Of a stretch of DNA of 64,000 nt, positions 2,328 to 7,800 are shown piece by piece. The DNA comes from Sulfurimonas aquatica (GTDB lineage Bacteria > Campylobacterota > Campylobacteria > Campylobacterales > Sulfurimonadaceae). The stretch lies in assembly GCF_017357825.1 (NCBI RefSeq), contig NZ_CP046072.1, positions 1,674,001 to 1,738,000 on the forward strand, in the 5' to 3' direction. The translations under genes and the position numbers were made by a program. The notes beneath the pieces are model-generated. The model saw only the letters and a list, made by a program, of their open reading frames with translations. It was not told the DNA's origin and did not search any database. The first letter of the stretch is position 1, and each line of letters starts with the position of its first letter.

Positions 2328-2357
2328 TTGATAAGCATATGAAATATATGTTATAAT
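2328..2357 (+). promoter_or_regulatory. Sigma70-type promoter of the efflux operon
   Basis: TTGATA at 2328-2333 and TATAAT at 2352-2357 are separated by 18 bases, and the start codon follows 33 bases after the -10 box with an AGGA ribosome site between. This is a good match to a housekeeping promoter for the tolC/adaptor/RND operon. Confidence 0.6.
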
Positions 2358-2389: not shown

Positions 2390-3733
2390 ATGAAAAGATT
2401 ACTTCTCTTAGTTTCATTTTCACTTTTACTCAATGCTTCAGAGAATCTCTCACTACATCAAGCACTAGAAATCTTAAAAACTCAAAACCTAGAAATCGAA
2501 TCTGCTAAAATAGATGAAAGTATTGCTAAAGAGGATGAAAAAAGCGTCTCTGGCATAGAGTATGGTACGCTTAACTTTATTCAAGACTTTGCGCACTCTA
2601 ACGATGCTGGAAATGTTTTTGGATTTACACTTAGCTCTCGTGAAGCTAGTTTTGGAAACTTTGGATTTTCAGAGTTTGATGGTACAAATCCAAATATTTT
2701 AAACGTTCAACCTAAGGACTTAAACTACCCAGATGATAGAAGCTATTTCCAAAGTAAATTAAAATATGAAGTCCCTCTTTTTACAGGCTTTGCGCTTAGC
2801 AACTACAAAGACATTATGAGTTCTATGCGTAGAATAAAAGGCTTAGAAAAAGAGCAAGTCATAAATGCAAAAAGCTATGAGCTTAGAAAAAGCTACTATG
2901 ATATGGCGCTTTTAGATGATTCAATTTATAACTTAAACACTATCATTGAAAATATAAACACATTAGAAGATATGACAAAGAGTATGATTGAAGTTGGATA
3001 TGCAAAACATATAGACCTCTTGGAAGTAAAAGCTAAAAAGGGTAACGTCAAAAGACTTCTTTTACAAATGAACGCAAATAAAAAACTTCTATATCACTAT
3101 GTCAGTTTTCTACTCAATCAAAAAGTAACAGCTATAGTCACTCCAAGCTCAGAGATTGAAATGCCTATATTAAGTGATGAAGAGATACTAAAAAACAATC
3201 TTGATATGCAAAAAGCGTCAATAGCGCTGGAAATACGAAAAGATATGCTTGAGCTTTCAAACGCAGCTTACTACCCTACCCTTGGAGCATTTGGGGAGCT
3301 CTCTACTGCTGATGATAGCTTTTTAGGCGACGCGGATGATCATAAAGCATATACTGTTGGTGCAAGACTCACATGGAATATCTTTAATGGTGGCGTAGAT
3401 AGCGCAAAGATAGAGAAGTCAAAACTAGAACATATAAAAATGAAATCGCAACTTGAACTTGCTCGTAAAGGTATCGCTTTAAAGCTTGCAAAAATAAGAA
3501 CAGAGATTATAAGTGCTGATGAAGAGATAGACTCACTTAAAAAAGAGCTTGAGTTTGCAGAGGCAATATATAAAAATTATGAGGGAAGATATAAAGAGAA
3601 ACTCTCCTCAATGAGTGACGTTATCATTAAACAATCGGCTCAAATAGAAAAAGTGCTACAACTTCAAATAGCAAAAAATAGACGTAACGCAAAGATATTT
3701 CAACTAGAAAAACTAGCAAATGGAGAAAAATAA
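2390..3733 (+). CDS. TolC-family outer membrane efflux protein
   Basis: The 447-residue protein has a signal peptide (MKRLLLLVSFSLLLNA) followed by a TolC-type architecture: two related halves rich in long helices, each carrying the N-terminal pattern LHQALEILKTQNLEIESA and, in the second half, YYPTLGAFGELSTADD plus WNIFNGG. Such proteins form trimeric outer membrane channels with a periplasmic helical barrel. It is the first gene of an operon with a periplasmic adaptor and a two-gene RND pump, so it most likely serves as that pump's exit duct. The next gene starts one base after its stop. It might also be shared with other exporters; nothing here links it specifically to type I secretion of the large adhesin. 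Confidence 0.88.
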   Translation: MKRLLLLVSFSLLLNASENLSLHQALEILKTQNLEIESAKIDESIAKEDEKSVSGIEYGTLNFIQDFAHSNDAGNVFGFTLSSREASFGNFGFSEFDGTNPNILNVQPKDLNYPDDRSYFQSKLKYEVPLFTGFALSNYKDIMSSMRRIKGLEKEQVINAKSYELRKSYYDMALLDDSIYNLNTIIENINTLEDMTKSMIEVGYAKHIDLLEVKAKKGNVKRLLLQMNANKKLLYHYVSFLLNQKVTAIVTPSSEIEMPILSDEEILKNNLDMQKASIALEIRKDMLELSNAAYYPTLGAFGELSTADDSFLGDADDHKAYTVGARLTWNIFNGGVDSAKIEKSKLEHIKMKSQLELARKGIALKLAKIRTEIISADEEIDSLKKELEFAEAIYKNYEGRYKEKLSSMSDVIIKQSAQIEKVLQLQIAKNRRNAKIFQLEKLANGEK

Positions 3734-3734
3734 T

Positions 3735-4484
3735 ATGATAAAAAAAATAATAACAATCACAGCCTTAACCGTTTCACTTGTAGCGGAAACGCTAACTCTC
3801 TCAGGAAGCGTAATCTCAGATAACCAAAAGATGATAACAAGCCGTTTTATGGGCTTTGTTACTTCTGTAAACGTAAGTGAAGGTGAAAAAGTCCAAAAAG
3901 ACCAGATTTTATATAGCATAGACTCTCGTGAAATTGACTCTGCTAAAAGTCAGGCTGAACTAAGCCTTGAGATGTATCAAAATCAGTACTCTAACGTTCA
4001 GATAAATCTTCAACGCCACCGTCGACTTTTAGAAAAAGATATGGTTTCAAAGTATGAGGTTGAAAATCTAGAACTCGCCGCAAGAAACCTTGAAAATATG
4101 ACTTCAATAGCAAAGGCAAGACTTAAAGAGGTACAAAATCAGTATAGGTATTTAAATATTAAAGCTCCAAACAGTGGTGTTGTCGTAGCTAAAAATATTA
4201 AAGTTGGAGAGATGGCGATGCCTGGGATGCCTGCAATTATTCTCTCAGACCTTAGCAACCTTAAAATATCAGCAGAAATTGCCGAGAGTAACTTAAAGCT
4301 TGTATCTCATGGAAAAAAAGTTATGGTAGAGATTCCATCCCTAAAGATTAAAACTATTGGCAAGGTTACGGCAATCATTCCAAACTCAAATCCAATGACG
4401 CATACCTTTAAGATCAAAGTATCATTTAAAACTCTTAGCAAATCGGTTTATCCTGGTATGTATGCGACTGTAGCAATCAACTAA
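3735..4484 (+). CDS. RND efflux periplasmic adaptor (membrane fusion protein)
   Basis: This encodes a 249-residue adaptor that bridges the RND pump to the TolC channel. A signal peptide (MIKKIITITALTVSLVA) is followed by a split biotinyl-lipoyl domain (SRFMGFVTSVNVSEGEKVQK and, after the hairpin, NIKAPNSGVVVAKNIKVGE), a coiled-coil hairpin of about 60 residues between the halves, and a beta-barrel domain at the end. It is short for the family (often 350-400), lacking most of the membrane-proximal domain. I chose the ATG at 3735 rather than the ATG at 3720, because GGAG at 3722-3725 sits at the right distance and the upstream start would add residues before the signal peptide. It lies one base after tolC and 11 bases before the permease gene. 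Confidence 0.85.
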   Translation: MIKKIITITALTVSLVAETLTLSGSVISDNQKMITSRFMGFVTSVNVSEGEKVQKDQILYSIDSREIDSAKSQAELSLEMYQNQYSNVQINLQRHRRLLEKDMVSKYEVENLELAARNLENMTSIAKARLKEVQNQYRYLNIKAPNSGVVVAKNIKVGEMAMPGMPAIILSDLSNLKISAEIAESNLKLVSHGKKVMVEIPSLKIKTIGKVTAIIPNSNPMTHTFKIKVSFKTLSKSVYPGMYATVAIN

Positions 4485-4495
4485 AGGAATTCTCT

Positions 4496-6085
4496 ATGAA
4501 ACATCACAAACCTTATGTACCTAAAGACTATGCAGGAAAATTAGCAGCGGCTTTCATCCGTAGTCCTCTTACTATTGTACTTGGTATTTTTTTACTCTCT
4601 ATAGGTTACCTTTCACTTATGATAATGCCAAGAGAAGAGAATCCCCAAATGGTAGTAAGTGGATCTACCGTTATAGTTGCCCTTCCTGGTGCGAGTGCTA
4701 AAGAGGTTGAAAAGATGATAGTCCAACCACTAGAGCGTAAACTCAAAGAGGTAAAAGGAGTAGAACATATCTATGGTATGGCTATGGACAATGTAGGCAT
4801 AGTAAACGCCGCGTTTTTTATAGGTGAAGAGAAAGAGGGATCAAACTTAAAGATTTACGACAAGATTATGCAAAACGCAAATATGTTTCCCGCTGGCGCT
4901 ATGGATCCTATTATTAAACCTCTTGATATTGACGTTGACATTCCTATTGTCTCCGTAGCGTTTTATTCCGATGCCAAAAGTATGGATAAAACAGAACTCT
5001 ATGACAAAGTCAAGGAGTTACAGCACCATATAAATGGCCTTGAAAACGTTGCCGTCACAGAGTTAAAAGGAGGTTCTCGCCATCAGTTTAACGTTAGCGT
5101 AGACCTAAACAAACTCTCTGGATACAACCTCTCTATGGGACAGATTAGTAGTGCCATAGAGTCATTAGCTTATAATGTTCCCGCAACAAAAAATACTACT
5201 AAAGACAATGAAATAGTTCTTCTTGGTGTTAAAAACGCCATTGAGAGTGCAAAAGACATTGGAAACATTATCATAGCGCAATACATGGGCTCACCAATCT
5301 ATCTTCATCAAGTGGCAGATGTCGAAAACTCCTATGATATACAGAACTTTAAATCGGCAACTATTGCTAAACGCAAAAGCGATGGAGAGTTTTCAAAGTT
5401 TCAAGACCAGGTAACGCTTACTGTTTCCAAACTACAAGGCACAAATGCCGTTATAATCGCTGATGAAGTGAAAAAAGAGTTAGAAAAGTATAAAGAGTAT
5501 CTTAAAAAAGATGGCATTAATTATGTCATTACTAGAAATGATGGCGAACGTGCAGATGAAGCTGTAAACGAGCTTGTTTATCACCTTGTGCTCTCTATTG
5601 TTATTATTGCTATTTTACTTATCTTTGTTCTAGGTTGGAGAGAATCTCTTATAGTTACTTTTACTGTTCCTGCTATTTTAGCTATTACTCTTTTTGTAGC
5701 GTACTTAACAGGCCAGACTATAAACCGTATTACGCTGTTTGCATTTTTACTCTCGCTTGGTCTACTTGTTGACGCTGCTATTATCGTTATTGAAAATATA
5801 CATAGACACTATCACTCCGTTGAGTCTGCTCATGAAACGCCAGATGAGTTGATGATAAAAGCAACCGATGAGATTGGTCCTCCTACAAATATAGCAACGC
5901 TTGCAATCATTATGACAATGGTTCCAATGGCGTTTGTCGGTCAAATGATGGGTCAGTTTATGAAACCCATTCCAGCAAACGTTCCAGTATCTCTAATTGC
6001 GTCTTTATTTGTTGCATATATTTTCACCCCTTACCTCGCAGTTAGAATGCTAAAACGTCCCGATCATTCAAAAGGAGAGCATTAA
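4496..6085 (+). CDS. RND efflux permease, N-terminal half
   Basis: The 529-residue product corresponds to the first half of an AcrB/CusA-type RND pump: TM1 (about 24-45), the PN1/PN2 porter region (about 50-350), then TM2-TM6 (about 360-520). The protein ends in a hydrophilic tail right after TM6. In the TM4 proton-relay motif it reads LLVDAAIIVIEN, so the first Asp (D426) is kept and the second position is Ala427. AcrB has two Asp residues here, whereas CusA-type metal pumps also have a single Asp with a VDAA motif. The stop TAA overlaps the ATG of the second half-gene by one base (TAATG), so the two halves should be translationally coupled. Substrate is unknown. Confidence 0.85.
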   Translation: MKHHKPYVPKDYAGKLAAAFIRSPLTIVLGIFLLSIGYLSLMIMPREENPQMVVSGSTVIVALPGASAKEVEKMIVQPLERKLKEVKGVEHIYGMAMDNVGIVNAAFFIGEEKEGSNLKIYDKIMQNANMFPAGAMDPIIKPLDIDVDIPIVSVAFYSDAKSMDKTELYDKVKELQHHINGLENVAVTELKGGSRHQFNVSVDLNKLSGYNLSMGQISSAIESLAYNVPATKNTTKDNEIVLLGVKNAIESAKDIGNIIIAQYMGSPIYLHQVADVENSYDIQNFKSATIAKRKSDGEFSKFQDQVTLTVSKLQGTNAVIIADEVKKELEKYKEYLKKDGINYVITRNDGERADEAVNELVYHLVLSIVIIAILLIFVLGWRESLIVTFTVPAILAITLFVAYLTGQTINRITLFAFLLSLGLLVDAAIIVIENIHRHYHSVESAHETPDELMIKATDEIGPPTNIATLAIIMTMVPMAFVGQMMGQFMKPIPANVPVSLIASLFVAYIFTPYLAVRMLKRPDHSKGEH

Positions 6086-7800
6086 TGTTTAATAAATTTG
6101 AAAAATTTATACTCAGCAGTATAAAGAGCGTAACTTCAAGACGAATTATCTTAACGCTCACTCTCATAGCGTTTATACTTTCAGTGCTTATGATTGCGCC
6201 GAGTAAATTAGTTCTAGCAAAGATGCTACCGGGAAAAGATAATGACACCTTTAATATCTATGTATCTCTTGCTAGTGGAAGCTCAATAGAACAAACAAAT
6301 AGAGTCACACAGTGCGTAAGCTCTTATGTGGTCAAAGAGAAAAATGTTCTTGATACCGAAGTCTTCTTAGGTATGGGATCACCGCTAGATTTTGCAGGAC
6401 TTATTAAAGGCTCTCATTTTAAAAACTCCGAAAATGTCGCTGAGATTGTACTTAATCTGACAAAAAAACATCACAGGGATGAGCCTTCATATATGATGGT
6501 GCAACGCATTAGGCCACTCATTCAGTCAAACTGCGAAAAACTTTATCCTAACACAAAGATATCTTTTGTAGAGCCACCGGCAGGACCTCCCACTATGGCA
6601 GCTATAGTTGCTGAAGTATATGGAAACAACCCTGATGGCATAAGAAAAATAACAAAAGACATAGAGAGTATATTTCATAAAACTGATGGATTAGTTGATA
6701 TAGACATCATGCAAGATGAAGTTTATGAGACATTTGAGATAATTGTAAACAGTACAAAAATAGCAAAATCCGGCGTAGATATAAAACAGCTCAATAACAT
6801 TATATACCTTGCATTTGAAGGTATGCAAATAGCCGTAAAAAATTCTGAAATATATAATGACCAGATTCCCATCTTCCTATCACTTTCAAGAGAGTCAAAA
6901 AGATTTACTTCAAAAGATTTAAATGCCATAGAGATGAAACTTAGCTCACTCAAACTTATGAATGCAATGGGAATGATGATTCCTCTTACGGAGTTGGTTA
7001 CTATAACTCCTAAGAGATCTAATCCAATGATAATGACAAAAGATTTACATCAAATGAGTAACGTTGTCGCTGAAACAGATATGGTATCGCAAGTATATCC
7101 ATTGATTGATGCAAGAGATCAGATGATAGAACTACTTTCAAATGAGTATGAAGTCACAAAAATTGGTCTTTTTAACCTTGAACTTAAAGATAAAAAAACA
7201 AGTGAACTATATAAAATAATCTGGGATGGAGAGATGGAAGTCACCCTTGATACCTTCGTTGAACTTGGTGCTGCGTTTATTGCGGCTCTTATACTCATAT
7301 TTTTACTAATGGTGATTTATTATAAGAGTTATACTCTGAGCGCGATTATTCTATTAGGATCATTTCTATCAATTATAGGCGTAATTGTTGGTCACTATAT
7401 TATGGATCTCTTCACAGCTGATACTTTCTTTTTAACAGCAACCTCTCTCATTGGATTTATCGCTTTAATAGGTATTAGTTCAAGAAACTCTCTACTACTC
7501 ATTGATTTCACAAAATCTCTAATGCTAGATAAGGGAATGCATCAAGCTGAAGCCATAGCGTATGCTAGTGCAACTAGATCAAAACCAATATTTTTAACTG
7601 CGGTCGCTATCATTTTAGCATCGACTCTTCTAGCTCGTGACGCCGTATTTGGTGGACTTGGAGTATCTCTTATATTTGGTACGGTAGCAGCCGTTATAGC
7701 TTCGCTTGTTGTTGTTCCAGTACTATTAAATATGTCAAATTTAGAAGCGCATTTTGGATTTAGAGAGAAAAAAGCGGTATCAATAAACGATCCACTCTAA
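6085..7800 (+). CDS. RND efflux permease, C-terminal half
   Basis: The 571-residue product is the second half of an RND pump: TM7 (about 20-42), PC1/PC2 porter region (about 50-370), and TM8-TM12 (about 392-550). It starts with its own ribosome site (AAAGGAG about 7 bases before ATG). The TM10 motif reads LIGISSRNSLLLIDF; Arg467 occupies the place of the proton-relay Lys940 of AcrB. Together the halves would give a 1,100-residue pump, the normal RND size, so both are needed for a complete protomer. It ends the efflux operon and faces serA convergently. A recent split of one ancestral gene is the simplest origin; see findings. Confidence 0.85.
   Translation: MFNKFEKFILSSIKSVTSRRIILTLTLIAFILSVLMIAPSKLVLAKMLPGKDNDTFNIYVSLASGSSIEQTNRVTQCVSSYVVKEKNVLDTEVFLGMGSPLDFAGLIKGSHFKNSENVAEIVLNLTKKHHRDEPSYMMVQRIRPLIQSNCEKLYPNTKISFVEPPAGPPTMAAIVAEVYGNNPDGIRKITKDIESIFHKTDGLVDIDIMQDEVYETFEIIVNSTKIAKSGVDIKQLNNIIYLAFEGMQIAVKNSEIYNDQIPIFLSLSRESKRFTSKDLNAIEMKLSSLKLMNAMGMMIPLTELVTITPKRSNPMIMTKDLHQMSNVVAETDMVSQVYPLIDARDQMIELLSNEYEVTKIGLFNLELKDKKTSELYKIIWDGEMEVTLDTFVELGAAFIAALILIFLLMVIYYKSYTLSAIILLGSFLSIIGVIVGHYIMDLFTADTFFLTATSLIGFIALIGISSRNSLLLIDFTKSLMLDKGMHQAEAIAYASATRSKPIFLTAVAIILASTLLARDAVFGGLGVSLIFGTVAAVIASLVVVPVLLNMSNLEAHFGFREKKAVSINDPL

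Follow-up and report, generated by a model that had tools for sequence, protein, structure and literature searches.

Full-size RND efflux permeases are viewed as single chains derived from a duplicated unit of six transmembrane segments (TMs), and a chain of about 1000–1100 residues is expected of such a permease. In the window, by which we mean the whole 64,000-nucleotide stretch of the Sulfurimonas aquatica genome (2.85 Mb) that was analyzed, two genes with products of 529 and 571 aa were found in place of this single chain. The locus raises the question of whether one gene has been broken, or whether a permease is naturally made from two polypeptides, as a previous sequence-only reading of this DNA had proposed. 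NolGHI was formerly read as three genes. It is called a single gene in the part of PMC8277102 cited here. Given this history, the conservation of the split had to be tested first. A literature search returned no report of such a split in the permease of a tripartite efflux pump.

The two genes belong to a group of four plus-strand genes (2390–7800) that encode a TolC-like outer membrane channel (2390–3733, 447 aa; PF02321), a periplasmic adaptor (3720–4484, 254 aa) and, jointly, one RND permease. ORF1 (4496–6085, plus strand, 529 aa) comprises TM1–TM6 and the first periplasmic loop and matched residues 4–497 of PF00873, and ORF2 (6085–7800, plus strand, 571 aa) comprises an amphipathic helix, TM7–TM12 and the second periplasmic loop and matched residues 522–1016. 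Both scores (265.8 and 132.9 bits, respectively) passed the cut-off of 28 bits. Because the two matches are complementary and do not overlap, the break lies in the TM6/TM7 linker, where the sequence-only reading had placed it; the gene boundaries that it gave were exact, and both halves are intact, as it had held, with no internal stop in either. The second half also has the ribosome site of its own and the overlapping start that had been described: in the plus-strand junction (6072–6087), a Shine-Dalgarno sequence (AAGGAG, 6072–6077) is followed, at a 7-nt spacing, by TAATG, in which the stop TAA (6083–6085) and the start ATG (6085–6087) share one base (6085). Folding of the RNA at the window's junction gave no unusual structure (z 0.18).

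Upstream of the operon, the best promoter-like site (2328–2357, plus strand; TTGATA, 18 nt, TATAAT, with TG before the second hexamer and 11 of 12 matches) is a putative promoter. Promoter-like sites showed no regional excess ahead of the operon (24 found vs 21.3 in shuffles, sd 4.4). The genes flanking the operon gave no clue to the substrate: judged by eye and from the annotated order in Sulfurovum mangrovi, they are serA- and rpsA-like, apparently with housekeeping roles.

In the predicted topology, there are two six-TM repeats, in each of which the first TM is followed by a large periplasmic loop. Hydropathy gave six segments in the N-half and five in the C-half, the last of which (499–557) is long enough for two. 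ORF1 matched PDB chains over nearly its full length (residues 10–522 with an MdtB chain and 19–529 with 8f3e) and resembled MdtB- and AcrD-type chains; the resemblance of ORF2 was weaker by sequence. An AlphaFold2 model of the C-half, of moderate confidence (pLDDT 67), shows TM7–TM12. Foldseek aligned this model with BpeF, CmeB and AcrB at E 1e-19, but with a TM-score of about 0.46 and an rmsd of about 13. The model of the N-half was poor (pLDDT 46) and was left out of the evidence.

Split loci were collected by likeness to ORF1, so that Sulfurimonas and its kin weigh most, from named genome contigs (the best 79 of 173 confirmed stretches), further genomes and plasmids. Forty rows were dropped from the junction survey, namely 34 repeats and 6 in which no C-half could be scored; 2 of these 6 were fused plasmid loci. 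The same split was found at 134 distinct loci (those not identical over about 660 nt), with the C-half adjacent to and after the N-half throughout, and the junctions resembled that of the window. At 119 of the 134, a ribosome-site word (GGAG, GAGG or AGGA) was present within 14 nt before the second start, against a background of 6.5% in random 14-mers from the same N genes. With the start codon nearest the stop chosen by script, a choice that favours overlap geometry, the start stood at +2 relative to the stop (TAATG-like) at 98 loci and at −1 (ATGA-like) at 13, together 111, and the offsets spanned −26 to +51. The relative frame of the second half was 2, 1 and 0 at 115, 14 and 5 loci, respectively; the N-half ended with TAA at 106, TGA at 22 and TAG at 6, and the C-half began with ATG at 124. 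Clean junctions in relatives, which the sequence-only reading had named as a check, were thus found, and the junction looks like one of ordinary coupled translation rather than an error.

A match to ORF1 was present in 49 of 60 relatives at E ≤ 1e-40 and in 163 of 397 genomes of a phylum-wide draw at E ≤ 1e-60; among the matches listed from this draw, the ORF1-matching frames were of split size (509–604 aa). Of 104 genomes of family f9, 85 had the C-half, every frame being 279–616 aa. The split is also carried by one-contig genomes, and public annotation of Sulfurovum mangrovi and Sulfuricurvum kujiense gives both halves as ordinary genes. Six fused orthologues (frames 1077–1171 aa) occurred among the 60 relatives, and two genomes (G040 and G059) carry a fused orthologue plus a split copy. 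The same relatives yielded two distant full-size pumps (26–28% identity), as well as a small number of incomplete matches (frames of 120, 273 and 469 aa). None of the close relatives examined had a continuous frame across 6085; the continuous ones are fused orthologues with about 44–52% ORF1 identity or less. In family f16, which belongs to the same order, the fused form was present in 20 of 21 genomes (frames 1012–1181 aa). A query with a fused member at E ≤ 1e-220, which requires that the halves share a frame and is thus biased towards such cases, matched 27 of the 397 genomes: the frame was uninterrupted in 11 (nine f16, one f5 and one f20), and the other 16 had the halves in one frame with one or two stops inside. 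Beyond the phylum, the comparison covered plasmid records. Eight of these were examined among the matches listed (30 of 55); the six from other phyla were all fused and the two from this phylum both split. The permease on Polaromonas pPNAP01 (WP_011797839.1), for example, is fused and encoded by a 3282-bp gene.

Several observations were made beside this survey. On the Sulfuricurvum kujiense plasmid pSULKU01 (L010), the split pair follows a TetR gene, and no adaptor is annotated in the stretch. The fused relatives on Paracoccus and Rhizobium plasmids (L188 and L189) adjoin genes for an FAD-dependent oxidoreductase, DUF2892 and ArsR-type proteins, and the Paracoccus neighbourhood additionally holds thiosulfate-transporter and sulfur-transferase genes; these neighbours hint at a sulfur-related role, a hint too thin to build on. 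Some N-halves end in His-rich tails that resemble a natural His-tag, with six-His runs in L145, L147 and L153 and at least 6 His within the last 45 residues in L150, L163 and L183.

The sequence-only reading had also called for a tree of fused and split forms. The tree was made from 59 rows, comprising 42 split forms chosen for spread from the 134, 12 fused forms and, as the outgroup, 5 other pumps of this genome. All 42 split forms fell into one clade (SH-aLRT 100; quick search without bootstrap) that was nested among the fused forms and had a long stem of 1.19 changes per site. The tool flagged uneven composition and very long branches in the outgroup, so that the position of the root is less certain than the grouping of all split forms together. 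Because the split forms make up one nested clade, the tree indicates one fission: the permease was split once, within Campylobacterales, in an old event of single origin. The rows of family f9 were scattered over several parts of the split clade, and transfer between lineages may therefore have helped to spread the split form.

The two halves have been inherited jointly. Trees of the N-half and the C-half alone each separated split from fused forms with a support of 100, and the well-supported branches of the two trees, 28 in each, did not contradict one another. The N and C distances correlated at 0.946 (861 pairs); since any two co-inherited genes would correlate, this value reflects joint descent and not contact. 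Between the window and six relatives, pN/pS was 0.15–0.17 for the N-half and 0.18–0.22 for the C-half, with synonymous sites near saturation. By these ratios, both halves are under purifying selection.

These data bear on how the two frames came about and on what they produce. A sequencing error or a recent frameshift that cut one gene in two would have produced a pseudogene; the two frames do abut at the linker, and fused relatives exist with frames of 1012–1181 aa. However, an accident of this kind is hard to reconcile with a split that recurs at 134 distinct loci, one-contig genomes included, that occurs in three relative frames and that has a ribosome-site word at 119 of the junctions, nor does it fit the purifying selection on both halves, the second split copy within the same genome, or the lack of a continuous frame in the close relatives examined; we give it next to no weight. 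Programmed frameshifting or stop-codon read-through could instead join the halves, so that some full-length pump is made. The overlap of stop and start would suit such a mechanism, as would the in-frame pairs of halves that are separated by stops (5 of 134 loci, and 16 of 27 genomes in the frame-biased search). Yet the relative frame, the distance and the stop codon are all variable, the stop is followed or overlapped by a start codon, which in most cases has a ribosome-site word ahead of it, and the fold of the window's junction is unremarkable, all of which makes such joining of the halves very unlikely.

The remaining alternative is that the halves do not form one pump and act as separate half-transporters, for example as homodimers of N or of C. 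Each half has its own start, and the six-TM half is generally presumed to be the ancestral RND unit. In RND proteins, however, the TM4 and TM10 residues both belong to the proton relay of one protomer, and here the TM4 Asp is in the N-half and the TM10 Arg in the C-half; the N-then-C adjacency at 134 loci and the joint inheritance also argue against independent transporters, which we consider very unlikely. RND gene duplication as such is mentioned in the cited part of PMC8277102. The claim that the pump consists of two polypeptides is thus supported by the comparative data, i.e., by 134 split loci, their single clade and the agreement of the N and C trees, from which assembly of the halves may be inferred.

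The relay residues had been called unusual by the sequence-only reading. The residues themselves are as described, with D426 followed by Ala in TM4 (ORF1) and R467 in TM10 (ORF2), but they are not tied to the split. The TM4 Asp was constant in 54 aligned split and fused members, and TM10 Arg was present in 54 of 54; by pattern, the Arg was found in 132 of 134 split members (two were unmatched by the pattern) and in 10 of 10 fused members. Because it is shared by split and fused forms alike, the Arg is a mark of the subfamily that predates the split. The residue after the TM4 Asp was A in 126, D in 7 and S in 1 of the 134 split members, and D in 5, S in 2, A in 2 and G in 1 of the 10 fused members (the other two of the 12 fell below the C-half score limit in this pattern count).

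HAE-1 multidrug permeases are expected to have Asp-Asp in TM4 and Lys in TM10, and the window pump has Asp-Ala and Arg instead. Among the other pumps of this genome, L001, multidrug-like by motif only, has TM4 Asp-Asp and TM10 Lys, and L003, metal-like by motif only, has TM4 Asp-Ala and TM10 Glu; the combination of Asp-Ala with Arg matches neither. No NCBIfam permease model reached its own cut-off for ORF1 or ORF2. The HAE-1 model TIGR00915 gave 191 and 76 bits against a cut-off of 940 that is set for the whole protein, the HME model TIGR00914 gave 136.7 and 60.7 bits against 701, and the SecDF models gave 19.6–26.2 bits for ORF1 against cut-offs of 160–723, with none listed for ORF2. The likeness to metal pumps that had been noted therefore holds for the Asp followed by Ala in TM4 but does not extend further: for both ORFs, TIGR00914 was outscored by the general multidrug models and fell far short of its cut-off, and TM10 has Arg vs Glu in L003. 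Assignment as a metal pump is thus disfavoured, and our guess is that the substrate would be a small amphiphile rather than a metal ion.

The same genome contains a second split pair (G000:C1:2592794-2596008, L204), whose ORF1 is 56% identical to that of the window. Genes nearby look MotA/TolQ- and OmpA/MotB-like by eye, and the nearest adaptor, also short, is about 2.5 kb away; a similar layout was seen in L210 and L211.

The adaptor of the window matched TIGR01730 with 130.5 bits (cut-off 94.9), but the match covered only 3–244 of 322, and the C-terminal stretch of other RND adaptors is missing. From the domain assignment in the cited part of PMC4446572, this stretch is probably the membrane-proximal domain. 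A profile was also made from fused-locus adaptors (11 of the 12 loci). It detected an adaptor in the stretch examined around 129 of the 138 distinct split genes, in every case with the match ending at 264–270 of 340; for the other 9, the stretch examined yielded none. The 12 fused-locus adaptors reached 326–339 of 340, which is expected, as 11 of them built the profile. In direct alignment to the window adaptor, the fused-locus adaptors extended 71–84 residues beyond its end (10 of 12 loci alignable), and the split-locus adaptors 0–8 residues (31 of 40). Across 144 permease-gene stretches, repeats and fused loci included, the adaptor family was present in 127 and the channel family in 115.

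Three adaptors of this genome are short (matches ending at 247–248 of 322) and three reach 319–321; a fused permease is preceded by a 236-aa member of the short group (G000:C1:2687591-2691239; L193, L212). The shortening is one change on one stem, so that its association with the split may be due to chance; with a single evolutionary event and a fused permease that has a short adaptor in this genome, we claim no causal link. As a compensating insertion in the split permease, the only candidate was ORF2 residues 273–280, one short run typical of split and not of fused forms, and it was set aside. Conceivably, the permease was split and the adaptor lost its membrane-proximal domain as two parts of a single redesign on a shared stem, which created a distinct four-gene class of tripartite pump, in which the half-permeases compensate for the lost domain or mix between a genome's two split copies; we think this rather unlikely.

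The reading that we prefer, with a probability of roughly 0.87, is that the four genes encode one RND tripartite pump whose permease gene underwent a single fission in Campylobacterales, at the TM6/TM7 linker, to give two translationally coupled genes. After finishing the N-half, the ribosome would restart at the overlapping ATG, so that similar amounts of both halves are made. The two six-TM halves would pair into one protomer, and three such two-polypeptide protomers would form the permease trimer, which would dock via the short adaptor to the TolC-like channel. The pump would be driven by protons that pass a relay divided between the two polypeptides, with the TM4 Asp in the N-half and the TM10 Arg in the C-half.

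Known systems resemble this pump in part. The fused members that the tree places in the same RND subfamily (Polaromonas WP_011797839.1; family f16) likewise have the TM10 Arg, the TM4 Asp and an operon with an adaptor, but their permease is one polypeptide and their adaptor is 71–84 residues longer at the C-end (10 alignable), whereas the window has two polypeptides and a short adaptor. The AcrB/MdtB-type (HAE-1) permeases gave the best sequence and fold matches and share the tripartite operon; they differ in being single chains with TM4 Asp-Asp and TM10 Lys. CusA/CzcA (HME) pumps share a TM4 Asp followed by a non-Asp residue, but they are single chains, the window scores far below the TIGR00914 cut-off, and the TM10 Glu is seen in L003, which is metal-type by motif only. 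In heteromeric MdtB/MdtC pumps, the permease is made from two gene products; both are full-size, however (the solved MdtB chain has 1040 residues), whereas each product of the window is half a protein. SecD and SecF are two genes in many bacteria. In the part of PMC8277102 cited here, SecD/SecF is described as a member of the RND superfamily and a heterodimer of two six-TM halves, and the Thermus SecDF is called a single fused chain. SecD/SecF serves protein translocation and has neither adaptor nor outer channel, unlike the window pump, which has genes for both; it may nevertheless be regarded as a known parallel and a precedent for the principle of a two-half RND protein.

In the cited part of PMC4446572, the membrane-proximal domain is proposed to be a spacer or a cargo presenter for RND pumps, and the shortened adaptor of the split loci bears on these proposals. 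An old and stable natural break at the duplication junction would mean that an RND permease can do without a covalent link between its halves, and the split pump would lend itself to studies of how proton flow is coupled to transport by its two halves.
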